Positions 46,280 to 62,483 of a stretch of 64,000 nucleotides of DNA are shown here, piece by piece. The translations under genes and the position numbers were made by a program. The notes below the pieces were generated by a model. That model had not been told where the DNA came from and made no database searches. It saw only the letters and a list, made by a program, of their open reading frames with translations. Numbering within the stretch: the first letter of the stretch is position 1; each line of letters opens with the position of its first letter. Source of the DNA: Calothrix sp. FI2-JRJ7 (lineage in GTDB: Bacteria; Cyanobacteriota; Cyanobacteriia; Cyanobacteriales; Nostocaceae); NCBI GenBank assembly GCA_019359675.1, contig JAHHGX010000073.1:1-64000 (forward strand). Reading direction: 5' to 3'.

Positions 46280-46352
46280 GAAATTATTTTACATACAGAC
46301 TTTTATAAAACATTTATGTTATTATTGAACAAAATTGTACAAAGGCTATCCT
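46280..46352. promoter_or_regulatory. cvkR-cas12k divergent promoter region
   Basis: This 73-bp region separates the two divergent starts. It contains AAAACATTTATGTTATT (about 46308-46324) with the half-sites ACAT and ATGT, close to the inverted motif reported for CvkR binding. A similar TTTTCATAAAACA stretch lies before tnsB. The site assignment is inference. Confidence 0.5.
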
Positions 46353-48494
46353 ATGAGCCAAATTACGATTCAATGTCGCTTAGTAGCCAGTGCCTCTACC
46401 CGCCAAAAGTTATGGAAACTGATGGCTGAACTCAACACGCCATTAATCAACGAATTGCTAATACTGGCGTATCAGCATCCAGATTTTGAAACTTGGCAAC
46501 ACAAAGGCGCCATTCCCGCAGGAATAATCAAGCAGTTGTGCGAACCGCTAAAAACGGATGCTCGTTTTGTTGGACAACCAGGACGGTTTTTTGCAAGTGC
46601 AATTGCGACAGTGAGCTATATTTATAAGTCTTGGGTAAAAGTTCAAAAACGCTTGCAGTTGCAAATCGATGGTAAAACTCGCTGGCTAGAGATGCTAAAC
46701 AGCGACACAGAATTGGTAGAAATGGCTGGCGTAGCTTTAGATACGCTACGTGCAACAGCAACTGAATTTTTAAATCAATTAAATCCTCAGCCGACAACAG
46801 AAGAAAGTCCTAAAAAGAAAGGAAAGAAGACGAAGAAAACTCAACAATTGCAAGGGGAACGGAGTCTGTCTAAAATTTTATTTGACACATACAGCGACAC
46901 AGAAGATGTTCAGACTCGGTGCGCTATTAGCTACTTGCTCAAAAATGGTTGCAAAATACCAAATAAAGAAGAAGACTCCAAAAAATTTGCCCAACGGCGC
47001 CGTAAAGTTGAAATTCAAATTCAAAGGCTGACAGACCAGCTTGCGTCAAGAGTTCCTAAAGGAAGAGATTTAACTGGCGCCAAATGGCTAGAATGTTTGT
47101 TAGAAGCAGTTCGTAAAGTTCCAAAAAATGAAGCCGAAGCGAAATCTTGGCAAGACAGCCTTCTAAGGCAATCTAGTAGCTTGCCTTTTCCTGTTGCTTT
47201 TGAAAGTAGCGAAGACATGACTTGGTTTCGCACTCTCAAGCTAAATAATATACCAATAAAGCTTTGGACTCTTTTGCTTTATATTGATTATTTAACAGTT
47301 ATCTCATTTGTACGTGATTCGCTTCAAAACGAAGCACTTTGGTTTAAGAATTTGAAAATTAACAATATTGATGTACTAAAAAAAGTTTGGATGATTCTGC
47401 TTAATATAAATAGCTTTGCTGGTATTTTATTTTTAGACGGTGTACTAAAAAAATATCAAAAACGTATATGTGTACACTTTAATGGTTTAAGTGATTTAAT
47501 GTTTGAAATTTACTGCGACTCTCGTCATCTTCATTGGTTTAAACGTTTCTTAGAAGACCAACAAATTAAGAGAAGTAGTAAAAATCAGCATTCAAGCAGT
47601 TTATTTACTATTCGTAGTGGACGTATCGCTTGGAAATCCACTCAAGGCAAGGGTAAACCTTGGAACGTAAATCGTCTAATGCTTTACTGCTGCGTTGATA
47701 CTCGTTTATGGACTGCTGAAGGAACAAACTTAGTTGTAGAAGAAAAAGCTCTTGAAATAGCTAAAACTATTACTCGAACAAAGGAGAAAGAGACAAAAGA
47801 ACAAGTACAACTAAATGATAAGCAACTTGCCTACATTAAGCGTAAAAATGCAACTCTTACACGCATTAATAGTCCCTTCCCACGTCCGAGTAAACCTTTA
47901 TACAGCGGACAATCTCATATTCTAGTGGGTGTAAGTCTTGGTTTGGAAAAGCCTGCAACACTAGCCGTGCTAAATGCGATTACAGGGAAAATCATTGCTT
48001 ACCGTAGTGTTAAACAACTGCTGGGTAAAAATTATAAACTAATTAATCGGCAACGACATGAAAAGCTTGCTTTGTCTCATCAGCGCAAAGTAGCTCAAAC
48101 ACTTGCTGCACCAAATGAATTTGGTGACTCTGAGTTAGGAGAGCATATCGACAGGTTGCTGGCAAAGGAAATTATCGCTGTAGCTCAGAAATTTAATGCT
48201 GGCAGTATCGTAGTACCCAACTTAGATAACATGCGGGAACAAGTCAACAGCGAAATTCAAGCCAAAGCAGAAGAAAAATGTCCTGAATCTATAGAAGCTC
48301 AAAAAAAATACGCCTCATCTTATCGGCGTAGTGTCAACCAGTGGAGCTACAGAAGATTAATAGATTGTATTACAAATCAAGCAGCAAAAGCTGGAATTGT
48401 CATTGAAGAAAATAAACAACCTATCCGGGCAAGTCCACAAGATAAGGCAAAAGAATTAGCATTAAGTGCTTATAACGCGCGTAAAAAATCTTAA
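46353..48494 (+). CDS. cas12k: Cas12k (C2c5) effector with an in-frame repeat insertion
   Basis: The 713-residue protein starts MSQITIQCRLVASAST. It follows known Cas12k closely: LWKLMAELNTPLINELL, DGKTRWLEMLNSDTELVEMA, SYLLKNGCKIPNKEEDSKKF, YCCVDTRLWTAEGTNLV and the end IRASPQDKAKELALSAYN. The RuvC motif I is VGVSLGLEKPA, with the catalytic Asp absent as in other Cas12k, so it binds but does not cut. Between Trp291 and Cys373, where the reference has about 8 residues, there are 81, made of two repeats of about 40 residues (WFRTLKLNNIPIKLWTLLLY and WFKNLKINNIDVLKKVWMIL). Confidence 0.95.
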   Translation: MSQITIQCRLVASASTRQKLWKLMAELNTPLINELLILAYQHPDFETWQHKGAIPAGIIKQLCEPLKTDARFVGQPGRFFASAIATVSYIYKSWVKVQKRLQLQIDGKTRWLEMLNSDTELVEMAGVALDTLRATATEFLNQLNPQPTTEESPKKKGKKTKKTQQLQGERSLSKILFDTYSDTEDVQTRCAISYLLKNGCKIPNKEEDSKKFAQRRRKVEIQIQRLTDQLASRVPKGRDLTGAKWLECLLEAVRKVPKNEAEAKSWQDSLLRQSSSLPFPVAFESSEDMTWFRTLKLNNIPIKLWTLLLYIDYLTVISFVRDSLQNEALWFKNLKINNIDVLKKVWMILLNINSFAGILFLDGVLKKYQKRICVHFNGLSDLMFEIYCDSRHLHWFKRFLEDQQIKRSSKNQHSSSLFTIRSGRIAWKSTQGKGKPWNVNRLMLYCCVDTRLWTAEGTNLVVEEKALEIAKTITRTKEKETKEQVQLNDKQLAYIKRKNATLTRINSPFPRPSKPLYSGQSHILVGVSLGLEKPATLAVLNAITGKIIAYRSVKQLLGKNYKLINRQRHEKLALSHQRKVAQTLAAPNEFGDSELGEHIDRLLAKEIIAVAQKFNAGSIVVPNLDNMREQVNSEIQAKAEEKCPESIEAQKKYASSYRRSVNQWSYRRLIDCITNQAAKAGIVIEENKQPIRASPQDKAKELALSAYNARKKS

Positions 48495-49823: not shown

Positions 49824-49897
49824 TGGACGTAACTGGATTCGAACCAGTGACCCCATCCATGTCAAGGATGTACTCTAACCAACTGAGCTATACGTCC
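49824..49897 (-). tRNA. tRNA-Val (anticodon GAC), homing target of the CAST
   Basis: On the minus strand the cloverleaf is GGACGTA acceptor, D arm GCTC/GAGT, anticodon loop TTGACAT giving GAC, T arm ACTGG-TTCGAAT-CCAGT, acceptor TACGTCC and discriminator A. No CCA is encoded. Its 3' end faces the CAST. The gene is intact because the element inserts downstream of it. Confidence 0.96.
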
Positions 49898-49952: not shown

Positions 49953-50684
49953 TTATTTAACTTTGGCTGCCGCATCAATACCATCGCTAACCAGTTTGCC
50001 GTCTTCCATATATACAATTCTGTCGGCAATGTCTAAAATACGGTTGTCGTGGGTGACTAATAATATTGTACAGCCTTGCTCTTTTGCCAGTTTTTGCATT
50101 AGTTCTACGACATCACGTCCCGATTTTTTGTCTAATGCGGCTGTTGGTTCATCTGCTAGTATTATTTTAGGATGACTCGCCAATGCCCGCGCGATTGCTA
50201 CACGCTGCTTTTGTCCTCCCGACAAACTTTCGGGATAATAATCAACACGATTACCTAAACCTACTGTTTCTAACATATTAACAGCTAAGGCATCCATATC
50301 TTGGTCTAAGTACTTATCGTGCAACTCTAATGACATCCGCACGTTTTCTTTTGCCGTTAAAAATGTCATCAGATTATGCGCTTGGAATATATAGCCAATA
50401 TTACGACGTAACGAAGTTAACTGCTTTTTACTAGCGCCGCATATCTCTTGTTCTAATATCTTCAAACTACCCGACTGCGCTGAACGCAAACCACCCATCA
50501 ACGTTAAAAGCGTCGTCTTTCCAGAACCCGATGGCCCCGTCATGATGATTATTTCACCTTTGTTGATTTCCAAATTTATATCAAATAATGCTTGCTTACG
50601 TAAGGCGCCTTCCCCAAAATAATGGTTTAAATCTTGTATCGATATTACACTCTCTTCACCAAGCTGATGTGATTCTGATTGCAT
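49953..50684 (-). CDS. devA: DevA-type ABC transporter ATPase
   Basis: The 243-residue ATPase has Walker A MTGPSGSGKTTLLTLMGG, the signature SLSGGQKQRVAIARALA, Walker B IILADEPTAALD and the H-loop LLVTHDNR. It belongs to the MacB/LolD/DevA group that powers DevBCA export of heterocyst glycolipid or related lipids. Its partners devC and devB lie 6.7-9 kb away on the same strand, with the oxidase cluster between. An 18-bp TetR-type operator stands 14 bp upstream of the start, linking it to that unit. Confidence 0.92.
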   Translation of the reverse strand: MQSESHQLGEESVISIQDLNHYFGEGALRKQALFDINLEINKGEIIIMTGPSGSGKTTLLTLMGGLRSAQSGSLKILEQEICGASKKQLTSLRRNIGYIFQAHNLMTFLTAKENVRMSLELHDKYLDQDMDALAVNMLETVGLGNRVDYYPESLSGGQKQRVAIARALASHPKIILADEPTAALDKKSGRDVVELMQKLAKEQGCTILLVTHDNRILDIADRIVYMEDGKLVSDGIDAAAKVK

Positions 50685-50697
50685 AATCTCACTTATT

Positions 50698-50715
50698 ATA
50701 TCGAACGTTTGTTAT
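50698..50715. promoter_or_regulatory. TetR operator before devA
   Basis: ATATCGAACGTTTGTTAT lies upstream of devA. It matches ATATCGAACGCTCGTTAT before tetR (61954) at 16 of 18 positions and ATAACGAACATTCGTTAT before the GNAT gene (59209) at 15. The motif is an imperfect inverted repeat, as expected for a TetR dimer. Confidence 0.72.
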
Positions 50716-50778
50716 AAATTAATTTAACTTATTGAGTAAAGTGGTGTCAAGATCGGGCAGGATGCCCAACCCACAAGG

Positions 50779-52266
50779 TTATAAATTTGTAATTAAATGT
50801 TCCCCCACTCTGAGAGCGTTTGCAATTACTGTAAGTGAGGGACTGGTTGCTGGGTTGGATGGGAAAAAGCTGGCGTCAACAATATATAAGTTATTGACAT
50901 CGTGTGTACAACAGTTGAGGTTAAGAACTGATGTTTTGGGGTCTTCACCAAAGCGACATGTACCTGACTGGTGTGCAATTACATTTAAAGGCGCCTCAGC
51001 ACGGGGATAGGCGCCACGCGATAGGGGATTATTGATTGTGCGGTCTACTGTTTTGAGTGTATCTAACCAGCGATAAATTAAACGGTCGTGTGCTTCGGTG
51101 TTGTTAGGGGTATATTCTAGATAGAGTTTTGAGTTTTTTAGTCTGACTCGGTTGTTTGGGTCTGGTAGGTCTTCGGTTTGTAACCACCAACCAATGGAAC
51201 GAATGGCTAGTTGTCGTAAACCGGAACCAGGCATAAGTTTGGCTAAACCAGATAATAAAGGTGGAGATTCTGCAAACATGACATTTTGAAGAAGACCACC
51301 TGTATTGTGAATACTGCCCATTGGGAAGGGAAAGTTTTTATCTCCCCAGTAAAAATCATTGATACAAACTGTTTTGGGAAATATACCCGAATTTGTTGTT
51401 GGACGTAGTTGTACTATAGATGTCATTAAGTGTTTCATAAAATTGCGTCCCACTTGGTCGGAACTGTTCGCTAGTCCGTGGGGGTGTTTTTCGTTGCGTG
51501 AACGCAATAGTAATGCTGCCGAGTTGACGGCGCCGCAAGCTAGAATAACAATATGGGCAAAGAATAGATATGACTGTGTACCTATTTGCGCTTCAACTGC
51601 TTTAACTTCGGCGCCACTGGGGCTAGTATGTAGAAAGCTAACAAATGCGTCGGTTTTGAGAGTGACATTAGGATAGTTTTTGACGGTTGCAATTCCTGGT
51701 TTGGTATCGCTATTTTCATTTGACTCTAAAGGTAGATGCGATGGATTTAATCCTTGTTTAGCTACGATATTGCAAATTTCTTGGACTTGAGGTTCGTGAT
51801 TTATTGCTGGGTACAAATATTCTTGAGTGCGAGGTGGTTCGGTAGAGTCTTCTCCAACTTGACCACCGACATTATAAAGCTTTTCAGCTTCATTGTAATA
51901 TGGTTCCAAGTCTTTATATTTAATCGGCCATTCAGGAGAAATACCATCTTGATGCTGTACCTGCTCAAAATCTTTTTCCCGCATCCGTAACAGTTCAGCA
52001 CTGTAAGTCTTGGTATCACCACCAACCGAGTAACTTGTTTGGGGAAAAAATGGCTCGCCATCTTTATCGTACCATTCTTCGTTAGCGCGATAACGTTCTT
52101 TTTTAAAGACTTCGCCACCTTGAAGTTGTTCTTCTGGAGCTAAAAAACCACCTCTTTCCAAAATTAGAATTTTCTTACCCGTTGGCGCCAGTTTTTGTGC
52201 TATCGTTCCACCACCAGCGCCTGTACCAACTATAATTACATCATAATATTGGTCATCGATAATCAT
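50779..52266 (-). CDS. GMC-type FAD oxidoreductase
   Basis: About 495 residues from the ATG at 52266 (MIIDDQYYDVIIVGTGAGGG), which has GAGGAGA 8 bp upstream; the ATG 8 codons earlier is less likely. The FAD site GTGAGGGTIAQKLA and ILERGG are near the N-terminus, the PQTSYSVGGDTKTYSAELLR region follows, and the C-terminus has HQSGTCRFGEDPKTSVLN with the catalytic His and DASFFPSNPATSPSLTVIAN. It probably oxidises an alcohol or sugar and is next to the oxidase genes, so it might feed electrons to them (inference). Confidence 0.88.
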   Translation of the reverse strand: MIIDDQYYDVIIVGTGAGGGTIAQKLAPTGKKILILERGGFLAPEEQLQGGEVFKKERYRANEEWYDKDGEPFFPQTSYSVGGDTKTYSAELLRMREKDFEQVQHQDGISPEWPIKYKDLEPYYNEAEKLYNVGGQVGEDSTEPPRTQEYLYPAINHEPQVQEICNIVAKQGLNPSHLPLESNENSDTKPGIATVKNYPNVTLKTDAFVSFLHTSPSGAEVKAVEAQIGTQSYLFFAHIVILACGAVNSAALLLRSRNEKHPHGLANSSDQVGRNFMKHLMTSIVQLRPTTNSGIFPKTVCINDFYWGDKNFPFPMGSIHNTGGLLQNVMFAESPPLLSGLAKLMPGSGLRQLAIRSIGWWLQTEDLPDPNNRVRLKNSKLYLEYTPNNTEAHDRLIYRWLDTLKTVDRTINNPLSRGAYPRAEAPLNVIAHQSGTCRFGEDPKTSVLNLNCCTHDVNNLYIVDASFFPSNPATSPSLTVIANALRVGEHLITNL

Positions 52267-52302
52267 ATAAGTTCTCCTCTTTATGTACAAGCGTGAAAGT
52301 AG

Positions 52303-52362
52303 GGTGCGTGAAAGCCATTACCATCAATCAATAGAACGCTAGGATTAAAGCTTTCACGCACC
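52303..52362. repeat. intergenic hairpin repeat, GTGCGTGAAAGC family
   Basis: GGGTGCGTGAAAGCC pairs with AAAGCTTTCACGCACC. It is an inverted copy relative to 5149 and lies between coxC and the GMC gene. Confidence 0.75.
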
Positions 52363-52392
52363 ATCTTACATATGGTGTTTAAGCAATAATAA

Positions 52393-52453
52393 GGTGCGTG
52401 ACGCTAGAAGATTATTCTTTTACCTGTTAATTGTTCATAGCGTCACACACCCT
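52393..52453. repeat. intergenic hairpin repeat, GTGCGTGACGC family
   Basis: GGTGCGTGACGCTA pairs with TAGCGTCACACACC. The last bases of the repeat form part of the coxC stop codon (read on the minus strand as TAG), so the repeat inserted right at the gene end. Confidence 0.75.
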
Positions 52454-53033
52454 ACCACAAATAAATTAAGCTAAACAAAATAATCCAAATCACATCGACA
52501 AAGTGCCAAAATAGCGAAGTTGCCGCAACACCAAAGTGACCTTTGTCGTAGTTACCAGGAATAAAAGAACGAATTAAGACCATGAACTGTAATAAAACAC
52601 CTGTAAAAACGTGCAGTCCGTGGAAACCTGTGAGTAAATAAAACGTTCCACCGAAGACTCCAGATGTAAACCCAAAATTGAGTCCTTGCCATTCCACTGC
52701 TTGACCGTATAGAAAATAACTCCCCATCATCATTGTGAGCAGTAAAAACACGCGAAAACCCCAAAGGTTTTTACGTGCGAGGAAAAGTTCGGCTATATAT
52801 ATTACAAAGCTGCTGGCTACAAGAATGACTGTATTTATTCCAGGTTCTTTAATTTCTAATCCTTCTACACCTGTTGGCAACCAGTTTGTTGTTGTTGTTT
52901 TGTAGACTATATATCCTGCGAATAAACTTAAGAAAATAACGCTTTCGGAAAGTAGAAACACGATGAAGCCAAACATGCTATTTGCTTCTTCGTCGTGGGA
53001 ATGCTGAATATGTTCTGGTGCTGTTGTTTCCAT
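52452..53033 (-). CDS. coxC: heme-copper oxidase subunit III (ARTO)
   Basis: About 193 residues from METTAPEHIQHSHDEEANSM. The longer reading to 53120 adds residues encoded by a short tandem repeat (TDTTDVTDVTD) and is unlikely to be the native start. It has five membrane segments and subunit III landmarks: FLLSESVIFLSLFAGY, the FYLLTGFHGLHVFTGVLL region with its His residues, and ATSLFWHFVDVIWIILFSLI. It completes a coxBAC set. Confidence 0.93.
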   Translation of the reverse strand: METTAPEHIQHSHDEEANSMFGFIVFLLSESVIFLSLFAGYIVYKTTTTNWLPTGVEGLEIKEPGINTVILVASSFVIYIAELFLARKNLWGFRVFLLLTMMMGSYFLYGQAVEWQGLNFGFTSGVFGGTFYLLTGFHGLHVFTGVLLQFMVLIRSFIPGNYDKGHFGVAATSLFWHFVDVIWIILFSLIYLW

Positions 53034-53060
53034 TTTAGATGTTTGAATAAAATACCTTGC

Positions 53061-53118
53061 AACGGATGTAACGGATGATTTATCCGTTACATCCGTTACA
53101 TCCGTTGTATCCGTTGCC
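53061..53118. repeat. STRR array between coxA and coxC
   Basis: Tandem degenerate 9-mers on both strands (CAACGGATGTAACGGATGA, then CCGTTACATCCGTTACATCC) form a potential hairpin between coxA and coxC. The same units occur at 23181, 30044 and 62011. Confidence 0.7.
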
Positions 53119-53119
53119 A

Positions 53120-54775
53120 TTATTTCAAGTTGGCGCCGTTTTCTACGAGTGGTTCATTTTTACCATAACCATATGGTTCTGAGATAACTATGGGGAGTTC
53201 TTCAAAGTTTTCTACTGGTGGAGGTGAGGAAATTAACCACTCTAAACCTATTGCTCTCCAAGGGTTATCACCTGCTAATTTACCGTTCACACACGAACTG
53301 ACCATATTTAAGATAAATGGCAGTGTGGACATTCCAAGTAAAAATGCTCCTAAAGAAGCTATCACATTCCAAAATGCATACTCTGGGTCGTATGAAGCTA
53401 CCCGACGTGGCATTCCTTGTAAACCTAACGGATGCATTGGAAAAAAGTTTAAGTTGGTGCCAATAAATGTTAATACAAAGTGTAATTTTCCTAATCCTTC
53501 GTAGTACATCCGTCCGGTCATTTTGGGGAACCAGTGGTATATAGCAGCATACACTCCCATGACAGTGGCGCCGTATATAACGTAGTGGAAGTGACCGACG
53601 ACAAAATAGGTGTTATTAACATGAATATCAACGGGTACTGCGGCAAGCATAATACCTGTAATGCCCGAAAATACAAACATTACTAATCCACCGAGTGCAA
53701 ATAGCATTGGAGTGTCAAGTCGAAGTTTACCACCCCAAATCGTTGCTAGCCAAGCAAATACTTTAATACCAGTGGGGACGGAAATTAACATCGTCGAAAA
53801 CATGAATAGCACCCGCATCCAGCTTGGAGTACCACTCGCAAACATGTGGTGAACCCAAACAACTGCACTCAACCCTGTGATAATGAGGGATGATACGGCG
53901 ACTACTCTGTATCCAAATAACGGCTTTCTGGCGTAGACTGGAAAAATTTCCGAGAAAATACCAAATATTGGCAGTATTATTACGTAGACTGCGGGATGCG
54001 AATAAAACCAAAAGAAGTGTTGATATAATACTGGACTGCCACCTTTGGCAGGGTCAAAGAATGCTGTGCCAAAACAGAGGTCACACAGTAACATTACTGC
54101 CCCGGCGGTGAGTGCAGGTAGTCCAAATAACTGAATAATTTGGGCACTCAGAACCGTCCAAACATATGCAGGCATTCGGAAGAACGTCATTCCCGGTGCC
54201 CGCATTTTAAAGATAGTGGTGACAATATTAACGGCGCCCATTATTGAGGAAACCCCCGATAATGCCACTGCCACCAACCATAAAAATTGACCGTTAATAA
54301 AATTCCCACTAGGGTTTTGTAAACTGACGGGAGGATAAGACCACCATCCTGCTTGTGCTGGACCCGAAGGTAACAGAAAACTTGCCATCAGAATAATCCC
54401 GAATACAGGCACCATCCAAAATGCCACAGCATTCAATCTTGGAAATGCCATATCACCGGCGCCTATCATTAGTGGTACAAGATAATTAGCCAGACCAGCT
54501 AAAACAGGAAACGTCCACAGAAATAACATCACCGTACCATGCATAGTGAACATAGCATTGTAAACAGTACGGTCAACCAAGTCAGATTCGGGAGTTATTA
54601 ATTCTCCGCGAATAATCATCGCGAAAATTCCACCAATGAGAAAGAATATAAATGCCGTAACTATATATTGAATACCAATTACCTTATGGTCAGTGCTAAA
54701 GCTAAAGTAACTTTTCCACGTCGTTAAAGGTGGATGATGTTCTTTTTGCCCTTGAATACTTTCTAAAATTGTCAT
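53120..54775 (-). CDS. coxA: heme-copper oxidase subunit I (ARTO)
   Basis: This 551-residue subunit I has 12 membrane segments and all metal ligands: MHGTVMLFLW (heme), WFYSHPAVYVIILP (CuB His with the cross-linked Tyr), WVHHMFASG (CuB His pair) and VGHFHYVIYG (both heme His). The K-channel region after HP is normal. It is followed by coxC after a repeat array and preceded by coxB with a 2-bp gap. The complex sits in the cytoplasmic or thylakoid membrane. Confidence 0.97.
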   Translation of the reverse strand: MTILESIQGQKEHHPPLTTWKSYFSFSTDHKVIGIQYIVTAFIFFLIGGIFAMIIRGELITPESDLVDRTVYNAMFTMHGTVMLFLWTFPVLAGLANYLVPLMIGAGDMAFPRLNAVAFWMVPVFGIILMASFLLPSGPAQAGWWSYPPVSLQNPSGNFINGQFLWLVAVALSGVSSIMGAVNIVTTIFKMRAPGMTFFRMPAYVWTVLSAQIIQLFGLPALTAGAVMLLCDLCFGTAFFDPAKGGSPVLYQHFFWFYSHPAVYVIILPIFGIFSEIFPVYARKPLFGYRVVAVSSLIITGLSAVVWVHHMFASGTPSWMRVLFMFSTMLISVPTGIKVFAWLATIWGGKLRLDTPMLFALGGLVMFVFSGITGIMLAAVPVDIHVNNTYFVVGHFHYVIYGATVMGVYAAIYHWFPKMTGRMYYEGLGKLHFVLTFIGTNLNFFPMHPLGLQGMPRRVASYDPEYAFWNVIASLGAFLLGMSTLPFILNMVSSCVNGKLAGDNPWRAIGLEWLISSPPPVENFEELPIVISEPYGYGKNEPLVENGANLK

Positions 54776-54777
54776 AA

Positions 54778-55677
54778 TTAGCTATCTTTCTGACTGGGAT
54801 AATTCACAATTGGAGGTGTAGCAGGCGCCACACTATTCCAACCTTTTATAGTTTGTTTACTTTGCTGTTCATACTCAGCAAAAGCCTGATTATATGAAGG
54901 TTGTGGCTCAAGTTTCGCTGCCTGAACTAACCAAGTACTAAAATCTTCAGGTGTTTCCACAACTACATTGGTTTGCATTGCCGCAAAATAAGTACCGCTA
55001 AATTGGGAATCACGAAGACGATATTTACCCACACGTATTGGAGTAAACTCAAAATCTATAACTTGTTGAGGTATGATATCTTGCTTCAATCTAAAAGCTG
55101 GAATATACAACCCATGTATTACATCAGCAGAAGTCAACTTCAACCGAACTCGTTGCGCGCTAGGTAAATGTAACTCTGTACTACTGACATTAGCACCTTT
55201 ATAGCGGAACTCCCAAGACCACTGTTTGGCAATGACTTCTACTTCTGTAATTTTCTTAGATGGTGTATCCATCGAAGCAGCTTCTGCTGACTGCATTAGA
55301 TGTACATGTTCCATCGGTCCAAGAATTCCCATTTGGTCGTATATTTGATAGCTATAGACGCCAATCCAAATCACCAAGAAAAAAGGAATTGCAGTCCAAA
55401 TAATTTCTAATTTGACGTTCCCCTCAATTGGAGGTCCGTCACTCATATCGTATTTACCTGCACGTTGAAACAGAACTGAATAAGTAAGAGTACCCGTTAC
55501 TCCCAAAAATATAAAAGTCCCTAACGTCACCAAAAAGCTAAATAAATCATCAATAAGTAAAGACTCTGCTGTTGCTTGGGGTGGAAACCAAGAATGTGAC
55601 AAATCTCCCATCCACAAACTCACAGCACTCAAAGCTAATGTAACAATAATCAAGGTTACAATAGTACGAATTTTCAT
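54778..55677 (-). CDS. coxB: subunit II of the alternative terminal oxidase, CuA site missing
   Basis: This 299-residue subunit II has two N-terminal membrane helices and a cupredoxin domain (KQWSWEFRYKGANVSSTELH, DVIHGLYIPAFRLKQDIIPQ). The CuA loop, usually C-x3-C-x3-H-x2-M, reads YRLRDSQFSGTYFAAMQTNV: Asp and Ser replace the two Cys, and Phe replaces the His. This loss of CuA is the hallmark of ARTO-type quinol oxidases in cyanobacteria, which accept electrons from quinol and not from cytochrome c or plastocyanin. Heterocyst cox3 of Nostoc is of this type. Confidence 0.93.
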   Translation of the reverse strand: MKIRTIVTLIIVTLALSAVSLWMGDLSHSWFPPQATAESLLIDDLFSFLVTLGTFIFLGVTGTLTYSVLFQRAGKYDMSDGPPIEGNVKLEIIWTAIPFFLVIWIGVYSYQIYDQMGILGPMEHVHLMQSAEAASMDTPSKKITEVEVIAKQWSWEFRYKGANVSSTELHLPSAQRVRLKLTSADVIHGLYIPAFRLKQDIIPQQVIDFEFTPIRVGKYRLRDSQFSGTYFAAMQTNVVVETPEDFSTWLVQAAKLEPQPSYNQAFAEYEQQSKQTIKGWNSVAPATPPIVNYPSQKDS

Positions 55678-55679
55678 AA

Positions 55680-56285
55680 TTATTTCAACACTGCATTAAC
55701 ATCTTCACTCATCCGCAATAACCTAACAGCGGTATTGTGAACACCAAACTCACCTGCTAAATGGGCGCCTAATGTACCATGAAGATACATCATAAACATG
55801 ATTACCAGTCCCACAGCTAAATAACTCCACTGAACTTGTTGTCCTCGGTCTTTACGCCAAACGTAGCGCTGAAACCCTCGCCAAACCGTCATCACAACAA
55901 TTAACGTTAATAAAACGACACCACCAACACCATGCCAAAGCATAGTTTCAAAAGCTTGTAAACCCCAAGCGCTTTTAATTTCAGCTCCGGGTTGTGCCAG
56001 CATAATTTCGTAAAAACCTGCTGCGACTGTAAAAAACGTAATAATTGCACAAGCGAGCATATTGTACCAACCAACATCGAACAAGCTCGCACGTGTCGCA
56101 GGAATTGCTAAAAATTTAAAAACTGGCTTTTCCAACATATAAAAGGCGCCAACAATATCAAAAGTTACTGCTACAATAAATAATCCCAACGTTAAATGTA
56201 CCAAGTTGGGATGAATTGGTATTGCATAAGGCAACCCATTGGCGCCTAAGTGTGATTTAATTTGGTCAATCAAATCATAATTCAT
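55680..56285 (-). CDS. DUF2231 membrane protein (second)
   Basis: About 201 residues from MNYDLIDQIKSHLGANGLPY. The start overlaps the stop of the preceding DUF2231 gene (ATGA), and a longer reading to 56378 runs back into that gene and is rejected. Four membrane segments; the first carries the DUF2231 signature IPIHPNLVHLTLGLFIVAVT with conserved His residues. The pair sits directly upstream of coxB, as in heterocyst-type oxidase clusters I remember. It may bind heme or help assemble the oxidase (inference). Confidence 0.87.
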   Translation of the reverse strand: MNYDLIDQIKSHLGANGLPYAIPIHPNLVHLTLGLFIVAVTFDIVGAFYMLEKPVFKFLAIPATRASLFDVGWYNMLACAIITFFTVAAGFYEIMLAQPGAEIKSAWGLQAFETMLWHGVGGVVLLTLIVVMTVWRGFQRYVWRKDRGQQVQWSYLAVGLVIMFMMYLHGTLGAHLAGEFGVHNTAVRLLRMSEDVNAVLK

Positions 56286-56785
56286 TGCAAAACCCCTTGT
56301 TTTATAGCTTCTACAACTGGTTGTGTGTGTAGTCCATAGACCCAAACCAACTTGTCCCCAAGGTAAACTTGGAAGCAAACAATTACACTTAAAACTAATC
56401 CAACAGCTAAATAAGAAGTAGGTATTCTCAAAGGGTCACGTAATCGAATAATATAACGCCATCCTGTAATAGCTGCAATAATTCCCGACAGCGACCAACC
56501 AATCAAAGTATGTAAATTCAATACAGGTTCTACTGCTTCATATGCCAAAGAGAGACCAGCTTCGATTTGACCAAATATAATCGCAATAAATATCGAAACC
56601 GTGGCAAAACACATATTCCACCAACTTACCTCATACAGTTTATAATTCCGAGTTGCCAAACCTACAAAATCACAAACCACAGCAAACAACACCATTGCGA
56701 TTACAAAGTGAACAACAATAGGGTGTATTGTGTCTGGATACGGTAGATTATGCTCATTTAAAGGTGGAAGTAAGTTGTCAAACAT
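56282..56785 (-). CDS. DUF2231 membrane protein (first)
   Basis: This 167-residue protein has four membrane helices. The DUF2231 signature DTIHPIVVHFVIAMVLFAVV shows the paired His residues also seen in the downstream paralogue. AGAGGAAAAC precedes the ATG. It is the first gene of a five-gene unit DUF2231-DUF2231-coxB-coxA-coxC with tiny gaps, so the promoter should lie in the 600-bp region upstream. Confidence 0.87.
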   Translation of the reverse strand: MFDNLLPPLNEHNLPYPDTIHPIVVHFVIAMVLFAVVCDFVGLATRNYKLYEVSWWNMCFATVSIFIAIIFGQIEAGLSLAYEAVEPVLNLHTLIGWSLSGIIAAITGWRYIIRLRDPLRIPTSYLAVGLVLSVIVCFQVYLGDKLVWVYGLHTQPVVEAIKQGVLQ

Positions 56786-57402
56786 TTTGTTTTCCTCTAC
56801 ACATCCAAAAGATACGACGAAATTTCACTAACACTTGATTTTTTTTTAGATTTACGGTCATTAATTTACTCAAACACTACTAGTATTAACACATAAATTC
56901 TATATAGAAAAATTACATAACTGAAACAATGATATAATCTACTTTAAAAATTACACAGAGAAATTAAGATATAGTAAAGAATGAACTGGAATTCTACTGC
57001 TTCATATCTGCAAGACTTAGTTTATTAATAAAGAGTAATCATACTATTTCGGACTTACGCTGCATAAACCTGGTTTCTACGCATTCATTGTCGCAGACAA
57101 ATCGTCATTTTTATTAGATGCTATCAACGTATATTCCAGGTTTCTAGGTTTTCATGCGTAAGTCCTGATATTATCGGCGCCTGAAAGTTTGATGAATATT
57201 GCTTTTTCAAGAATAAATTCATTGTTTGATGTATCACTTAATTGTTTAAGTAAACTGGATAAAATCAAAATAAGATACAAACTTTACTAGCAACATTATA
57301 TGTCCCTAACTCCGGAACATATAATCAATCATTCTTAATGACTTATAATTACCAAATCATGGGCAACCAAATTTACTTGCAACTAGCATCCATCCGCAAA
57401 AG
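56786..57402. other. intergenic region with a MITE-like element
   Basis: 617 bp between devC and the oxidase unit. At 57051-57165 there is a 115-bp element with ends GGACTTACGC and GCGTAAGTCC, enclosing a copy of the AGAAACC element (CCTGGTTTCTACGC; ATCGTCATTTTTATTA; CCAGGTTTCT). The GGACTTACGC ends look like terminal inverted repeats of a small transposon. The rest is AT-rich, presumably with the oxidase promoter. Confidence 0.65.
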
Positions 57403-58569
57403 TTAAAAAATATCGGCAGGGTCAGCAGATTGCAACTTTCGCATCGCAATAGTACCAGAAATACTACACATAGCTACAGTTAAAACAAAAACATTAATTG
57501 CACGTTCTACCGTCATCGCAATCGGTAACATTGTGGCGCCAGCAGCAAGACTATATAATCCAATAGCAGCAATAAAACTAGGTATATAACCTAAAACAGC
57601 TAAAAGCAGCGACTCTTGTATCAAAACCCGCAGCAGAAAACCATCCGTATATCCCATCGCTTTGAGTGTTGCGTACTCAGGCAAATGTTCTGAAACATCA
57701 GAATAAAGAATTTGATAGACAATTACAATTCCCACAATAAACCCAACACCGACACCCAAACCGAAAATAAACCCTATTGCTGTACCTTCTGCCCAATATT
57801 TCTTTTCAATTTGGGCAAACTCTTCGGTAGTCAGTACCGAAACATCTTTGGGTAAAGATGCAGCAAGCTGTTTTTGCACCCTGAGAATATTGGCATTATC
57901 CTTCAAGTTAATCAAACCAACGGCAATTTTCTCAGGTTTGCTACTTGGAAAAAGCTGCATAAATGTAGATTCACTCGTAATTACATTACCATCTGCTGCA
58001 AACGAGGCGCCATTCACAAACAAACCTCGAAGATTTACAGCTTTACCGTTTAACTCAGTTTCAAACTTGTTACTTTTCTTAAACTCATCACTATTAACAC
58101 CGTAGTCAGGACGACCCGCAATATCAAACAACACACTATTGAGTGGTTTAATACTTTCGAGTCGTTTATTAACTTCTGGCATTTTGAACGTCGGTTTAGT
58201 TGGGTCAACACCCCATACTAAAATAGCCCTTTCCAAACGAGTTTGCGGATTACGCCATTGTCCGGTGGAAATATATACTGGAGTTACTGACTCAACACCA
58301 TCATACGCCAAAGTTTGATATAATCGTTCCCGCGCAAAATCTTTGACCGAAAATAAAGTTTGCATTTGCGGGTCAATCAACACCAAATCAGCTTGTAGGT
58401 TACGATGCGGTTGTATCGAAGCATCATATAAGGCGCCTTCAAACCCCATCTGAATTAACATTAATATATCAGCAAACGCAATTCCCGCAACCGCAATAGC
58501 AAGACGAGTTTTTTCTTTCATCAACTGGCGCCAAGCTAACGGTGTTTTCTTTTTACTAAATAATCTCAT
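57403..58569 (-). CDS. devC: DevC-type ABC transporter permease
   Basis: The 388-residue permease has an N-terminal TM (RLAIAVAGIAFADILMLIQM), a large periplasmic domain (about 40-265) and three C-terminal helices typical of FtsX/MacB permeases (AIGFIFGLGVGVGFIVGIVI, the LIQESLLLAVLGYIPSFIAA region, VERAINVFVLTVAMCSISGT). It should pair with DevA and the DevB fusion protein. It is 4 bp after the GNAT gene and probably co-transcribed with it. Confidence 0.92.
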   Translation of the reverse strand: MRLFSKKKTPLAWRQLMKEKTRLAIAVAGIAFADILMLIQMGFEGALYDASIQPHRNLQADLVLIDPQMQTLFSVKDFARERLYQTLAYDGVESVTPVYISTGQWRNPQTRLERAILVWGVDPTKPTFKMPEVNKRLESIKPLNSVLFDIAGRPDYGVNSDEFKKSNKFETELNGKAVNLRGLFVNGASFAADGNVITSESTFMQLFPSSKPEKIAVGLINLKDNANILRVQKQLAASLPKDVSVLTTEEFAQIEKKYWAEGTAIGFIFGLGVGVGFIVGIVIVYQILYSDVSEHLPEYATLKAMGYTDGFLLRVLIQESLLLAVLGYIPSFIAAIGLYSLAAGATMLPIAMTVERAINVFVLTVAMCSISGTIAMRKLQSADPADIF

Positions 58570-58573
58570 AAAA

Positions 58574-59188
58574 TTATGCCTCCCTTTCCATTGCCCATAA
58601 ATAAGGACTACCCTTTAATAACTCACCACCCCAAACAACCTTAAACCCATGCTTTTGATAAAACCGCATAGCGAGTTCGGTTGAAGTTTCCAAATAAATT
58701 GGCAACCCGTCACGAGAAGCTTGTCGAAGTATTGGTTCAATTAATAAACTACCTATTCCACATCCTTGACTACTTGGTGAAACACCCAACAGCGATAAAT
58801 ACCAATGAGGTTTTGACGACATATTGCGTTTATGTAGTTCTTCCATTGCCCAAGACCAAGAAAGCGTGCGTGCAAACCTTGATATTCCCAGTTTGAACGG
58901 CAAAATTAAGGCGCCTGCTTGTAATATACGTGTAACACTACTACCAGAACCTTCGGGGGGTATCCAAGATGCAACACCTTGTAATTCACCAGTATTGGTA
59001 GTAGTTGTATAAATATGGTTATAAGAATTGCTATATCCCAAAGCAACACGAAGTAACCACAAGAGCGCATTAGTAGAATTATCTGGCAGCAAATAATTAA
59101 AAATAGGGTCTTGACGAAAAGCATGACCTAAAACTTCGATAGCTTGGTTGACTTGTGATGTTTCAAGCTTGGTTATTGTTGCCTGCAT
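58574..59188 (-). CDS. GNAT-family N-acetyltransferase
   Basis: This 204-residue protein has the GNAT core: HWYLSLLGVSPSSQGCGIGS, the acetyl-CoA loop Q-x-x-G-x-G, then LPIYLETSTELAMRFYQKHG and FKVVWGGELL. The N-terminal part (NQAIEVLGHAFRQDPIFNYL) is typical of acetyltransferases of small amines. It lies between devB and devC in the same direction, with a TetR-type operator 21 bp upstream of its start. It may modify or detoxify the exported compound (inference). Confidence 0.9.
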   Translation of the reverse strand: MQATITKLETSQVNQAIEVLGHAFRQDPIFNYLLPDNSTNALLWLLRVALGYSNSYNHIYTTTTNTGELQGVASWIPPEGSGSSVTRILQAGALILPFKLGISRFARTLSWSWAMEELHKRNMSSKPHWYLSLLGVSPSSQGCGIGSLLIEPILRQASRDGLPIYLETSTELAMRFYQKHGFKVVWGGELLKGSPYLWAMEREA

Positions 59189-59208
59189 ATTTCACTTCCT
59201 TCAAATGT

Positions 59209-59226
59209 ATAACGAACATTCGTTAT
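59209..59226. promoter_or_regulatory. TetR operator before GNAT-devC
   Basis: ATAACGAACATTCGTTAT is a perfect 18-bp palindrome between devB and the GNAT gene. Related sites stand before tetR (61954) and devA (50698). It is the best match to a TetR operator in the window. Confidence 0.78.
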
Positions 59227-59245
59227 GCTTTACAGTAATAAAACG

Positions 59246-60637
59246 TTACAAATCAATCGAAGTTTGAACTTGTAAATTAGTCAACCCAGCGACACGCGAA
59301 TTATCTTCAGGGTTGATACGAATTTTGACTTCGACGACACGACGGTCGAGGTTTTCCCCTGGTTGGTTAGCAAAGGTGTTTTGACGGTTCACTTGTAAGC
59401 CAATTTGTGATACAGTGCCTTTGACTTCACCTTGGAACGCTTGTCCTGTTACCTTAGCCGTTTGTCCAAGTTTAATTTTACCAATATCGCTTTGATAAAC
59501 TTCAGCAATTGCTACCATTTGACTCGTTTGTGCCAAATCTGCAATTCCGTTATCACCAATCTTTTCTCCAGGACGGGTATGAATTTTGAGAATTTGTCCA
59601 CTCAGTGGCGCCCGAATGTAAGATTGTTCTAATTCAGTTTCTGCACGTTTAGCGGTTGCGATAGCATTATCAACTTCAGTTTGTGCAGCTTGAACATCCA
59701 CAGGGCGAACTTCAGCGATACTATTTAATGTAGCTTGAGCCTCGCTAATTTGTTTATTGCCAGTTGCGTTAATTCGATTTAGCGCAACTCTTGCTTCACT
59801 TAAGAGCTTACTATTAGTTGCATCAATACGTCGCAAAACAGCTTTAGCTTCACTAATTTGTCTAAGGGAAGTAGTATCAATCCGTTTCAACACAGCTTGA
59901 GCTTCATTAAGTTGCTGTTTCGCAGTTTCCACACTCAACCGTTTACCATCGAACAGCGAAATTGAAATTGCCCCTTCATTATATAGTTGCTGATAACGTC
60001 CCAATTCCGAATTTGCATTATTCAACTCAGCTTCCAACCTACTAATAGTGGCAAGTTGTGCTTGTCTATCACCTTGTGCTTGTGCTTCTAACCGTGCGAT
60101 ATTTTCTAACTGTGCTTGTTTATCACCTTGCCATTGAGCTTCTAACCGAGCAATAATTTCTTGTTGTCCAACCTTATCACCAACAGATTGAGCTTGCAGT
60201 CTAGCTACTGTAGCTTTTTGAGCTTGAATTTGTCCAGTTTTGGCGCCAGCTTGTACTTGTGCCAATTTTGCCCTTGCCATACTGACTTGTTTTTGAGCAA
60301 CAAGTAAAGCATCCTGTAATCTTGCTCTTGAATCTAATACAGCAACAACCTGACTTTGTTTAACACTATCACCCTCTTTTACCAACATCTTCGCTACTCT
60401 ATCACCATCTAAAGGGATAGGCGCCGATAACTTAATTATTTCAGCTTCAGGTTCCAGGCGCCCCAAAGCACTAACTTTCGTAACAGGAGGTAACTCAACA
60501 GGTTTTTCAACAGGCTTACCACTTAAACCAAACTGCTGGGCACCATAATATAATACACCACCAGTAGCAGCAGTAGCAGCAACCATCATTCCAACCATCC
60601 AACCATTAAAAGACTTGAGAGACAACTTAAAAGGCAT
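59246..60637 (-). CDS. devB: DevB-type membrane fusion protein
   Basis: The 463-residue HlyD-family adaptor has an N-terminal membrane anchor (GWMVGMMVAATAATGGVLYY), a lipoyl/barrel half (VSALGRLEPEAEIIKLSAP), a long coiled-coil hairpin (residues about 110-310) and the barrel return (SYIRAPLSGQILKIHTRPGE). The coiled coil contains internal repeats: ARLEAQ-x-QGDKQAQLENI three times, and RIDATNSKLLSEA-type units four times. It links DevAC to a TolC-like outer-membrane channel. AGAGGAAG precedes the ATG. Confidence 0.93.
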   Translation of the reverse strand: MPFKLSLKSFNGWMVGMMVAATAATGGVLYYGAQQFGLSGKPVEKPVELPPVTKVSALGRLEPEAEIIKLSAPIPLDGDRVAKMLVKEGDSVKQSQVVAVLDSRARLQDALLVAQKQVSMARAKLAQVQAGAKTGQIQAQKATVARLQAQSVGDKVGQQEIIARLEAQWQGDKQAQLENIARLEAQAQGDRQAQLATISRLEAELNNANSELGRYQQLYNEGAISISLFDGKRLSVETAKQQLNEAQAVLKRIDTTSLRQISEAKAVLRRIDATNSKLLSEARVALNRINATGNKQISEAQATLNSIAEVRPVDVQAAQTEVDNAIATAKRAETELEQSYIRAPLSGQILKIHTRPGEKIGDNGIADLAQTSQMVAIAEVYQSDIGKIKLGQTAKVTGQAFQGEVKGTVSQIGLQVNRQNTFANQPGENLDRRVVEVKIRINPEDNSRVAGLTNLQVQTSIDL

Positions 60638-60690
60638 ACTTCCTCTCTATATATAGATGCTGAACTTATAATTCCCAAAAATTCTATACT

Positions 60691-61341
60691 CTAACTCTGT
60701 GAACTCTGTGTCTCTGTGGTAAAAAACCGTTCCACTAAAAAATAAACAACAGGAATCATCAACCAAACATAATCCCACAATTCTTGATTCAAAAAAGCCA
60801 CCCCAATAGAAACCAAAGCAAAAGCAGGTTCAATCAAAGCCTTAACCCTCGTACCCCAAATAATACTCTTATCCAAATTTATATCAACAAGCCGATAATT
60901 ATAAGTTGCATAAGTCCAACTTACAAAATTCAAAATACCAATTAAACAAATATTAACACTAAACCAAACCTTCACCATTAAATTTCCAGAAAAACTCATC
61001 AACAAATCATTAGACAAAGGAACAAGAAAAAGACACATCAAATAAACAACCCCAATCCAGAGGTGTGTTTCATCAGTGCGCTTATAATAACTAACCTGCT
61101 GCGAATGAGCAATCCAATAAACAGCCACCAAAACAAACGTAATAACATAAGTACCCAAAGGCTTTAATTGTGCCATCAAAAAAGAATTGATTTGAGCATC
61201 CGTCATATCCTTCGCTTCCGGAAAATCAAATCCAGCAACCATTAGAGCCATAGCAAAAGCAAAAATACAATCGCTCAACCGTGCCAAATGACGAATCATG
61301 TTAGTAGATTTTTCTTCTTTCTCAAGTCCTTGACTAACCAT
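60691..61341 (-). CDS. TMEM175-family potassium-channel-like protein
   Basis: The 216-residue protein has five to six membrane segments. The family motif RLSDCIFAFAMALMVAGFDF (compare R-x-SD-x-x-FAxAxTL) is in the first helix. Bacterial TMEM175 proteins are potassium-selective channels that work as tetramers. AGGAG precedes the ATG. It is 9 bp after tetR, so the two should be co-transcribed. The last residues (FFTTETQSSQS) come from a dispersed repeat that seems to have replaced the original end. Confidence 0.88.
   Translation of the reverse strand: MVSQGLEKEEKSTNMIRHLARLSDCIFAFAMALMVAGFDFPEAKDMTDAQINSFLMAQLKPLGTYVITFVLVAVYWIAHSQQVSYYKRTDETHLWIGVVYLMCLFLVPLSNDLLMSFSGNLMVKVWFSVNICLIGILNFVSWTYATYNYRLVDINLDKSIIWGTRVKALIEPAFALVSIGVAFLNQELWDYVWLMIPVVYFLVERFFTTETQSSQS
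60693..60722. repeat. dispersed ACCACAGAGACACAGAG repeat at a gene end
   Basis: The inverse of the repeat at 14392: read on the minus strand, ACCACAGAGACACAGAGTTC then ACAGAG. It supplies the last eight codons and sits over the stop region of the TMEM175-like gene. Confidence 0.65.
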
Positions 61342-61350
61342 AAGAAACTC

Positions 61351-61932
61351 CTATGAATTCAAACCATACTTTTCTAAATAAGCATCAACCATCTTGCCCA
61401 TCAGCGTACATTGTTCAACAACATCAATCGTATTTACACCAAGCAACCTTTCTAAAATCACCCCATCAACAAAGCACATAATAAAATCAGCAAGCGCGCG
61501 GTCTTCCACACCTAAAAATTGATAAATGGCGCCTTGATAACGCTCGCATAAACGGCGCCAAAATTCACTATCTATATACCCTTCAGAATCTTGATGCTGA
61601 GAAAAATCAATCATTAAATAACTGCTTTTAATATGATAATCGAGATTACCATTCAAATATTTACCCAAAGCGGACGCACGTTCCTGCCGAGTCTTTAATG
61701 TCTCCCACTCCGCAGTTGCAATAGAAAGCTCATTCTGCACCATATCTTCCACCAACTGCTCAAATAAAGCCTTCTTATTTGGAAAATAGTGATACAGCGT
61801 TCCCGTCGAAACCTTTAACTCCTTCGCAATTTCACGCATCGTTATAGACCCATACCCCTTAGCAGCAAACAAGTCAAAACACTTACTCAGTAACTCCTTA
61901 CGGTACAAATCGTGGTCTACTATCTTTGGCAT
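61351..61932 (-). CDS. TetR-family repressor of the split dev locus
   Basis: A 193-residue protein from the ATG at 61932 (MPKIVDHDLYRKELLSKCFD). The helix-turn-helix is YGSITMREIAKELKVSTGTL, then YHYFPNKKALFEQLV. An upstream reading to 62013 runs through its own operator and is rejected. The C-terminal ligand domain has no known match to my eye. With operators before itself, before GNAT-devC and before devA, it likely represses an export system until a ligand binds. Confidence 0.9.
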   Translation of the reverse strand: MPKIVDHDLYRKELLSKCFDLFAAKGYGSITMREIAKELKVSTGTLYHYFPNKKALFEQLVEDMVQNELSIATAEWETLKTRQERASALGKYLNGNLDYHIKSSYLMIDFSQHQDSEGYIDSEFWRRLCERYQGAIYQFLGVEDRALADFIMCFVDGVILERLLGVNTIDVVEQCTLMGKMVDAYLEKYGLNS

Positions 61933-61953
61933 AATACATTGTTTGGCTTTTTT

Positions 61954-61971
61954 ATATCGAACGCTCGTTAT
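61954..61971. promoter_or_regulatory. TetR operator before tetR (autoregulation)
   Basis: ATATCGAACGCTCGTTAT starts 22 bp upstream of the tetR start. It shares 15 of 18 bases with the site at 59209 and 16 of 18 with that at 50698. Confidence 0.75.
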
Positions 61972-62483
61972 GGAATAGTCTAACGTGAAGTTTACAGCGA
62001 AGTCAAGTGGCAACGGATGTAACGGATGTAATGTAGGTTGGGTGGAGCGACAGCGGAACCCAACATTAATATAGGCGCCTTTTTAGAATTACAAGCGGTA
62101 CAAAATATGAGAGCATAATTTCTGTGCAATTAATCACAATCTGCGTGCAAGGGGTAAGACCCCACATTTTCATGAAAAATCGACCATTTCAAGAGCTATA
62201 GGCGCTCAAACTGGTAACTCAAAAACTTATTAAATCGTTCGGGTGAGGGGTTAAACTACCATTCGCTCTTGTGTATCCTCGTAGGAGAGGGTCGGGGGAG
62301 AGGTTTTCAACATCCTGCCAAATTTTGCCGTACTGTCCGGAAAGTTAAATTTGGTAACTGTAGTAAGAGTTGTTCCTAAAACAAGGGACAAAATGCATAA
62401 GTTGAAAAAGATAGACATATATAAGTAATAGAAGGGATAACAACCCGACTACCAAACAAACAAAAAACATTAGGAGAAAGATT
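61972..62483. other. divergent intergenic region
   Basis: 512 bp. It begins with an STRR array (62011-62030, CAACGGATGTAACGGATGTA) and a GTAGGTTGGGTGGAGCGAC dispersed repeat with its complement GAACCCAAC (62031-62063), then one GGCGCC at 62072. Otherwise AT-rich with no gene I can support. Confidence 0.5.

Follow-up and report, generated by a model that had tools for sequence, protein, structure and literature searches.

Three copies of a putative TetR operator before the separated parts of a DevBCA-type exporter in Calothrix sp. FI2-JRJ7

The stretch of DNA analysed here (the window) is 64,000 nucleotides long, comes from Calothrix sp. FI2-JRJ7 (assembly GCA_019359675.1, contig JAHHGX010000073.1, positions 1 to 64,000) and carries the genes of a DevBCA-type exporter together with that of a TetR-family repressor. 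An earlier note on this sequence had claimed that the exporter is split by an oxidase cluster and yet is under one shared motif, and the gene order is indeed as it stated: all on the minus strand, tetR-TMEM175-devB, then GNAT-devC, then two DUF2231 genes with cox2, cox1, cox3 and a GMC oxidoreductase gene, and finally devA, each exporter gene set having its putative operator. DevA, DevB and DevC score above the curated cut-offs of their families (295.8, 129 and 290.35 bits, respectively), which assigns them to the DevBCA type. The features are listed below in the direction of transcription (aa, amino acids; operator scores are those of the matrix described in the next paragraph).

61977..62006, minus strand: promoter-like TTGACT-18-TAGACT, its first hexamer exactly 35 bp before O1
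61954..61971, minus strand: putative operator O1, before tetR, ATAACGAGCGTTCGATAT on the gene strand; matrix score 28.4
61351..61932, minus strand: tetR, TetR-family repressor, 193 aa; Pfam TetR_N 60.6 bits
60691..61341, minus strand: TMEM175-like membrane protein, 216 aa; Pfam TMEM175 76.2 bits; 9 bp after tetR
59246..60637, minus strand: devB, periplasmic adaptor; TIGR02971 heterocyst_DevB 330.9 bits
59209..59226, minus strand: putative operator O2, before GNAT-devC; matrix score 22.3
58574..59188, minus strand: GNAT acetyltransferase, 204 aa; Pfam Acetyltransf_1 and Acetyltransf_7
57403..58569, minus strand: devC, permease; TIGR01185 devC 463.9 bits
50779..56785, minus strand: operator-free block of two DUF2231 genes, cox2, cox1, cox3 and the GMC oxidoreductase gene
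50721..50750, minus strand: promoter-like TTGACA-18-TAAATT (or TTGACA-17-TTAAAT), its first hexamer exactly 35 bp before O3
50698..50715, minus strand: putative operator O3, ATAACAAACGTTCGATAT, before devA; matrix score 27.7; identical in Calothrix sp. HK-06
49953..50684, minus strand: devA, ATPase; TIGR02982 heterocyst_DevA 377.7 bits

The proposed consensus of the three sites is an 18-bp near-palindrome, ATAACGARCGTTCGATAT. With up to 3 mismatches on both strands, the pattern given in the earlier note has 7 matches in the window against 1.0 expected, and none of 100 shuffles reaches 7; as that pattern was derived from the three sites themselves, this enrichment alone is weak. An independent matrix was therefore built from 19 distinct sites upstream of tetR in other genomes only, and it ranks the three sites first to third in the window (28.4, 27.7 and 22.3), with the next place at 13.0, no operator between O3 and O2 (best score 4.6) and a best score of 18.7 in 30 simulated 64-kb sequences. 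That the sites are one motif, at exactly the coordinates of the earlier note, is thus borne out. The genome-wide scan that the note had proposed agrees with this: under a strict setting (ATAACRARYGTTCGATAT, at most 1 mismatch) the 8.66-Mb genome of the strain holds three places, O1, O2 and O3, and the control none. At 3 mismatches the earlier pattern is uninformative genome-wide, because the control has more matches than the genome (193 vs 101), and 13 further near matches in the same genome (L004-L016; G, C, L and f labels are our handles for genomes, contigs, loci and families) were set aside, the best scoring 19.2 and 10 of the 13 lying within reading frames.

The association of the motif with this repressor extends to other genomes. 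In 39 loci of other genomes that carry relatives of tetR, the best palindrome within 250 bp upstream has at most 4 mismatches in 36 and at most 3 in 29, and permuted palindromes (n = 300) reach the 4-mismatch level in at most 3 of the 39; the relatives missing it at that level are L087, L090 and L092. Across 291 genomes, tetR (E ≤1e-20) is found in 86, the motif at the strict setting in 80 and both in 70 (Fisher 2.6e-40, a value not to be taken literally, since the genomes are related). Moreover, 74 of 80 named loci, which are the best 80 among the matches listed and overlap with the genomes used for the matrix, have a score of at least 20 within 300 bp upstream of tetR. Judged by sequence comparison, the 18-bp site belongs to this TetR as a conserved element.

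The protein itself has what is expected of a TetR-family autorepressor, namely a DNA-binding domain, a helical ligand domain and a conserved palindromic operator at its own promoter. The STGTLYHYF segment of the DNA-binding domain is invariant or nearly so among 45 aligned sequences, and the AlphaFold 2 model is all-helical with a mean predicted local distance difference test score of 91.7, many TetR structures matching it at Z above 13. When Foldseek's 1000 best chains were compared with the model by VIA-align, QacR with drugs (3br2_A, Z 15.9, root-mean-square deviation 2.9, 176 aligned) and FadR with acyl-CoA (3whc_A, Z 15.4, deviation 2.7, 170 aligned) ranked highest. The two are tied within 1 Z, and the fold search names no ligand.

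The position of the sites is informative as well. Among 73 distinct upstream sequences, a TTGACA-like hexamer (at most 1 mismatch) begins 35 bp before the operator in 28 cases, 34 bp before it in 9 and 33 bp before it in 6, which makes 43 occurrences in all, against a mean of 1.4 per position. O1 and O3 conform to this spacing, and O2 has a poorer hexamer, TTGATT, about 30 bp before it. Because the -35-like hexamer stands 33-35 bp before it, the operator would span about +1 to +18 and should cover the transcription start. The arrangement before devA suggests that this gene may have its own promoter.

Comparison with relatives points to how the exporter came to be divided. Calothrix sp. HK-06 (G314; L123, L171) has the same order as the window and keeps all three sites; its likeness to the window resumes at the TTGACA of the devA promoter, the DNA just upstream being different, and an extra MFS exporter gene and a MarR gene, absent in the window, lie between the GMC gene and that promoter (L123, 15085-17169). 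Among the loci examined, only these two have cox genes between devC and devA. In Calothrix sp. NIES-4101 (L172), the nearest contiguous relative, tetR-devB-GNAT-devC-devA is uninterrupted, devA is 90% identical and cox genes are absent; there is no operator before devA, and after devB there is only a weak site (12.8). Since NIES-4101 is contiguous and has no devA operator, this operator is likely to have arisen when the pump was split; the cox block was probably a later arrival, as was the devA operator that came with it.

Other genomes have divided the pump differently. In G356 and G348, tetR-devB has an operator in front of it, and devC-devA, which lies elsewhere (on another contig or 122 kb away), has two, with only short open reading frames of 50-90 aa between these two sites; in G217 a site precedes a devA about 2.4 kb after devC, and in Scytonema tolypothrichoides a site lies in front of a P450-like gene within a 3.3-kb devC-devA gap. 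Over 95 distinct devA loci, a site is found in the devC-devA gap in 1 of 83 with a gap of at most 500 bp and in 3 of 12 with a larger one, which is a weak association; G217 is outside this count, presumably because the contig breaks off within its devA. Gaps above 2 kb have the operator in 3 of 3 cases (window, HK-06 and Scytonema), a cut chosen post hoc in a set where the window and HK-06 are sisters. Split loci of this kind are a natural experiment, in which the distant pump subunits, in the cases seen, are found with the operator.

We consider it probable (roughly 0.85) that the locus encodes an autorepressed, ligand-induced efflux regulon, in which TetR acts at three promoters and pump genes that have moved apart are kept together. 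TetR would bind the near-palindrome at O1 before tetR-TMEM175-devB, at O2 before GNAT-devC and at O3 before devA, and the protein bound at the transcription start would block RNA polymerase, at its own promoter included. A ligand, probably lipophilic or drug-like, would release TetR, so that adaptor, permease, ATPase and accessory enzyme would be switched on together. In a common ancestor of this strain and HK-06, the oxidase block would have come to separate devC from devA, and devA, with a promoter and operator of its own, would have kept the pump parts in one regulon. Binding, repression, induction, the order of events and the substrate are what we infer here.

Several observations weigh against such a regulon. 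O2 has the lowest matrix score of the three sites, and only 19 of 72 named loci have an O2-type site within 130 bp after devB, a share that is nevertheless above that of random stretches (14 of 1440). At the strict setting, 16 of the 86 genomes with tetR have no motif, and 10 genomes have the motif without tetR; two of these ten are incomplete (G243, 74%, and G248, 65%). The contig of the former stops right after the site; in the latter the order is devB, site, DUF2834 gene, devC, and a poor match to tetR stands where the contig ends. Six of the 80 named loci score below 20 at tetR (L208, 19; L227, 14; L232, 19.5; L233, L235 and L246, 17). A plain promoter scan finds no enrichment of promoter-like sites in the region (37 vs 33.5), and devC-devA gaps of 0.5-1.8 kb hold the operator in 0 of 9 cases. 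Finally, by analogy with Anabaena, TetR may not act alone: in the available part of PMC12584617, alr3646-49 is treated as one unit whose promoter is bound by the MerR-like NsrM.

TetR might instead govern only its own operon through O1, with O2 and O3 being relics or bound by another TetR. Most named loci have no site after devB, as this would have it, and a second close tetR, 54% identical, lies on another contig of the same genome; the two proteins share the DNA-reading helix, and therefore the motif alone cannot separate them. However, O3, with its score of 27.7, is preserved letter for letter in HK-06 despite the differing DNA just upstream, and such a site is absent upstream of the second tetR (8 mismatches, in sequence that looks coding), a gene that seemingly belongs to another copy of the module, perhaps a decayed one. 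This makes the alternative improbable. That copy (G000:C15 58805-66557, L054) has devB-devC on one strand and tetR with devA, the latter 79% identical to that of the window, on the opposite one. Membership of the oxidase cluster, as part of a respiratory stress regulon, would rest on its position inside the module and on the operator-bearing genes that flank it in two sister species; it is made very improbable by the lack of an operator before the DUF2231-cox block or the GMC gene (best scores 1.9 and below 0), by the 617-bp gap between devC and the block and by the fact that cox genes are there in no other locus examined.

It might also be argued that the pump is a constitutive or developmentally timed lipid exporter of the heterocyst glycolipid type, on which TetR has little effect. 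DevA, DevB and DevC all match families named for the heterocyst exporter, and a nitrogen step-down table in the available part of PMC3141674 lists Anabaena alr3646 with 1.1, 9.0 and 2.1. However, a heterocyst glycolipid exporter should be confined to heterocyst formers, and the tetR-devBC module with its operator is present in Microcystis, Phormidium and Leptolyngbya. These three are not known to form heterocysts. In addition, other exporters and modifying enzymes are among the genes that have this operator in relatives, and DevC stands apart from most of its paralogues in the genome, which holds eight DevC and six DevA copies under the cut-offs used, those of this module included. In a DevC tree of 45 rows, 36 tetR-linked rows (the window among them) and two paralogues from the same genome fall on one side with 98% support (Shimodaira-Hasegawa-like approximate likelihood-ratio test, from a quick search); one of these two paralogues lies on C15 near the second tetR. 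Outside this set are five of the seven other DevC copies of the genome, plus L227 and L233, whose tetR has no operator; the long branches L227, L233, L246, L253, L257 and L258 are flagged as unsure in placement. We thus regard a lipid exporter of this kind as unlikely to be the correct explanation. The earlier note's statement that the system is not a constitutive lipid exporter finds indirect support in the occurrence of module and operator in Microcystis and Phormidium, in the separation of DevC from those five copies and in an Anabaena DevBCA homologue, reported as a drug exporter, that stands behind a regulator gene.

The genes linked to the operator in other genomes look like a putative set for detoxification and export. 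Among the 80 named loci, a GNAT gene like that of the window is found in 12 and a DUF2834 gene in 27 (matches above 40% anywhere in the locus), both lying between devB and devC in the loci laid out. In HK-06 a Coq4-like gene and the gene of an MFS exporter also stand behind an operator, as do P450-MFS in G308, tetR-Coq4 in G351 and a Rieske-domain protein in Mastigocoleus (G329); in G305 a Coq4-like gene follows a weaker site (20.3) by 385 bp. The candidate target is ambiguous in G161 and G197, where a Coq4-like gene is immediately followed by an exact site. The Coq4-like protein has solved relatives, 3msq and 6e12. An exact operator was also observed in L151 and L152, from two members of one genus, where it separates a Coq4-like gene from one that belongs to the GCS2 glutamate-cysteine ligase family. 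Because Coq4-like genes follow or adjoin the operator in several genomes, a prenyl- or quinone-like inducer is conceivable and could be the signal. A broader proposal, which we make tentatively and hold to be rather doubtful, is a cyanobacterial defence regulon against lipophilic compounds: one TetR with a conserved operator would time and again take on different modifying enzymes (GNAT, P450, Rieske oxygenase, Coq4-like, perhaps a fatty-acid hydroxylase), alongside various exporters (DevBCA, MFS), and would re-capture pump genes displaced by rearrangements. Some look-alikes were not counted as operators: dispersed copies of ATATCGAGCGTTCGATAT in a few genomes of family f2 (L161-L166, L277, L278), several with alike flanks, are probably a repeat, and single matches in L270, L273 and L275 are inside reading frames. 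Sites with ATAACAAGCGTTCGATAA in G305, G327, G331 and G334 had no consistent neighbour that we noticed.

The gene between tetR and devB had been described in the earlier note as a TMEM175-type channel, of which the homology stands and the channel signature does not. By Pfam and by profile search (6w8n, 1e-13; 5vre, 1.2e-11), its product is a distant TMEM175 homologue, related to the bacterial channels CmTMEM175 and MtTMEM175; it differs from these in having LSD for the FSD motif and Ala for the Thr of K+ selectivity. In the window protein and four relatives, a comparison in which two of the five pairs are near-identical, the Phe of FSD is found in 0 of 5 (the relatives have LSD, VSD or IAD) and the Thr at Asp+8 is replaced by Ala in 5 of 5. 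This conserved Thr confers K+ selectivity in TMEM175, according to the available part of PMC7176437. Because both the Phe and the selectivity Thr are replaced, K+ selectivity of this putative channel should not be assumed. TMEM175-like genes recur: in L084, L242 and L249 they lie between devC and devA, and in G235 and G289 they follow an operator next to a second devA; a similar stretch of 51 aa in L283, which has no Pfam match, was not counted.

Two further features of the region were observed. Downstream of devA are a tRNA-Val (49824-49897), just next to it, and a Cas12k gene (NF038191, 907 bits) at 46335-48494 of the window, and the tRNA that adjoins devA seems to be the site of a type V-K CRISPR-associated transposon. 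Inside the 5' part of cox3 (53058-53100, minus strand) there is a long inverted repeat of 19 pairs with a T-rich tail, which the GCAACGGATGTAACGGATGTAA stretch upstream of tetR, at about 62010, resembles.

TetR-family repressors of efflux pumps are represented by the AcrR, MtrR, TtgR and QacR type, and exporters guarded by a TetR are a known kind of system. The present one resembles them in its TetR fold, in the position of its gene beside a tripartite exporter and in the operator at its own promoter; it differs in its 18-bp cyanobacterial operator, in an exporter under three promoters and in its identity of about 19% to QacR. The literature searched for a TetR or an operator of DevBCA pumps, as covered by titles, openings of abstracts and selected passages, yielded no description of this operator. 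The tetR-linked DevBCA pump, which is also present in the bloom-forming Microcystis, Dolichospermum and Aphanizomenon, has a candidate operator and regulator in the site and its TetR. Among described exporters, Alr3647/8/9 and Alr4280/1/2 of Anabaena PCC 7120 are reported as DevBCA-like drug exporters (PMC8277102, part available), and further DevBCA homologues of unknown function are listed in the accessible part of PMC6161253. The Anabaena systems are alike in their DevBCA type and in alr3646, listed as a transcriptional regulator in PMC3141674, which stands in front of alr3647-49, a likeness at the level of description; a difference is that NsrM is reported at the alr3646-49 promoter, as far as the available text of PMC12584617 goes. 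The DevBCA-HgdD heterocyst glycolipid exporter belongs to the same protein families, but it is a single operon, alr3710-12, in the available part of PMC8277102, whereas the exporter of the window is split, linked to tetR and equipped with a DevC that is apart from most of its own paralogues.

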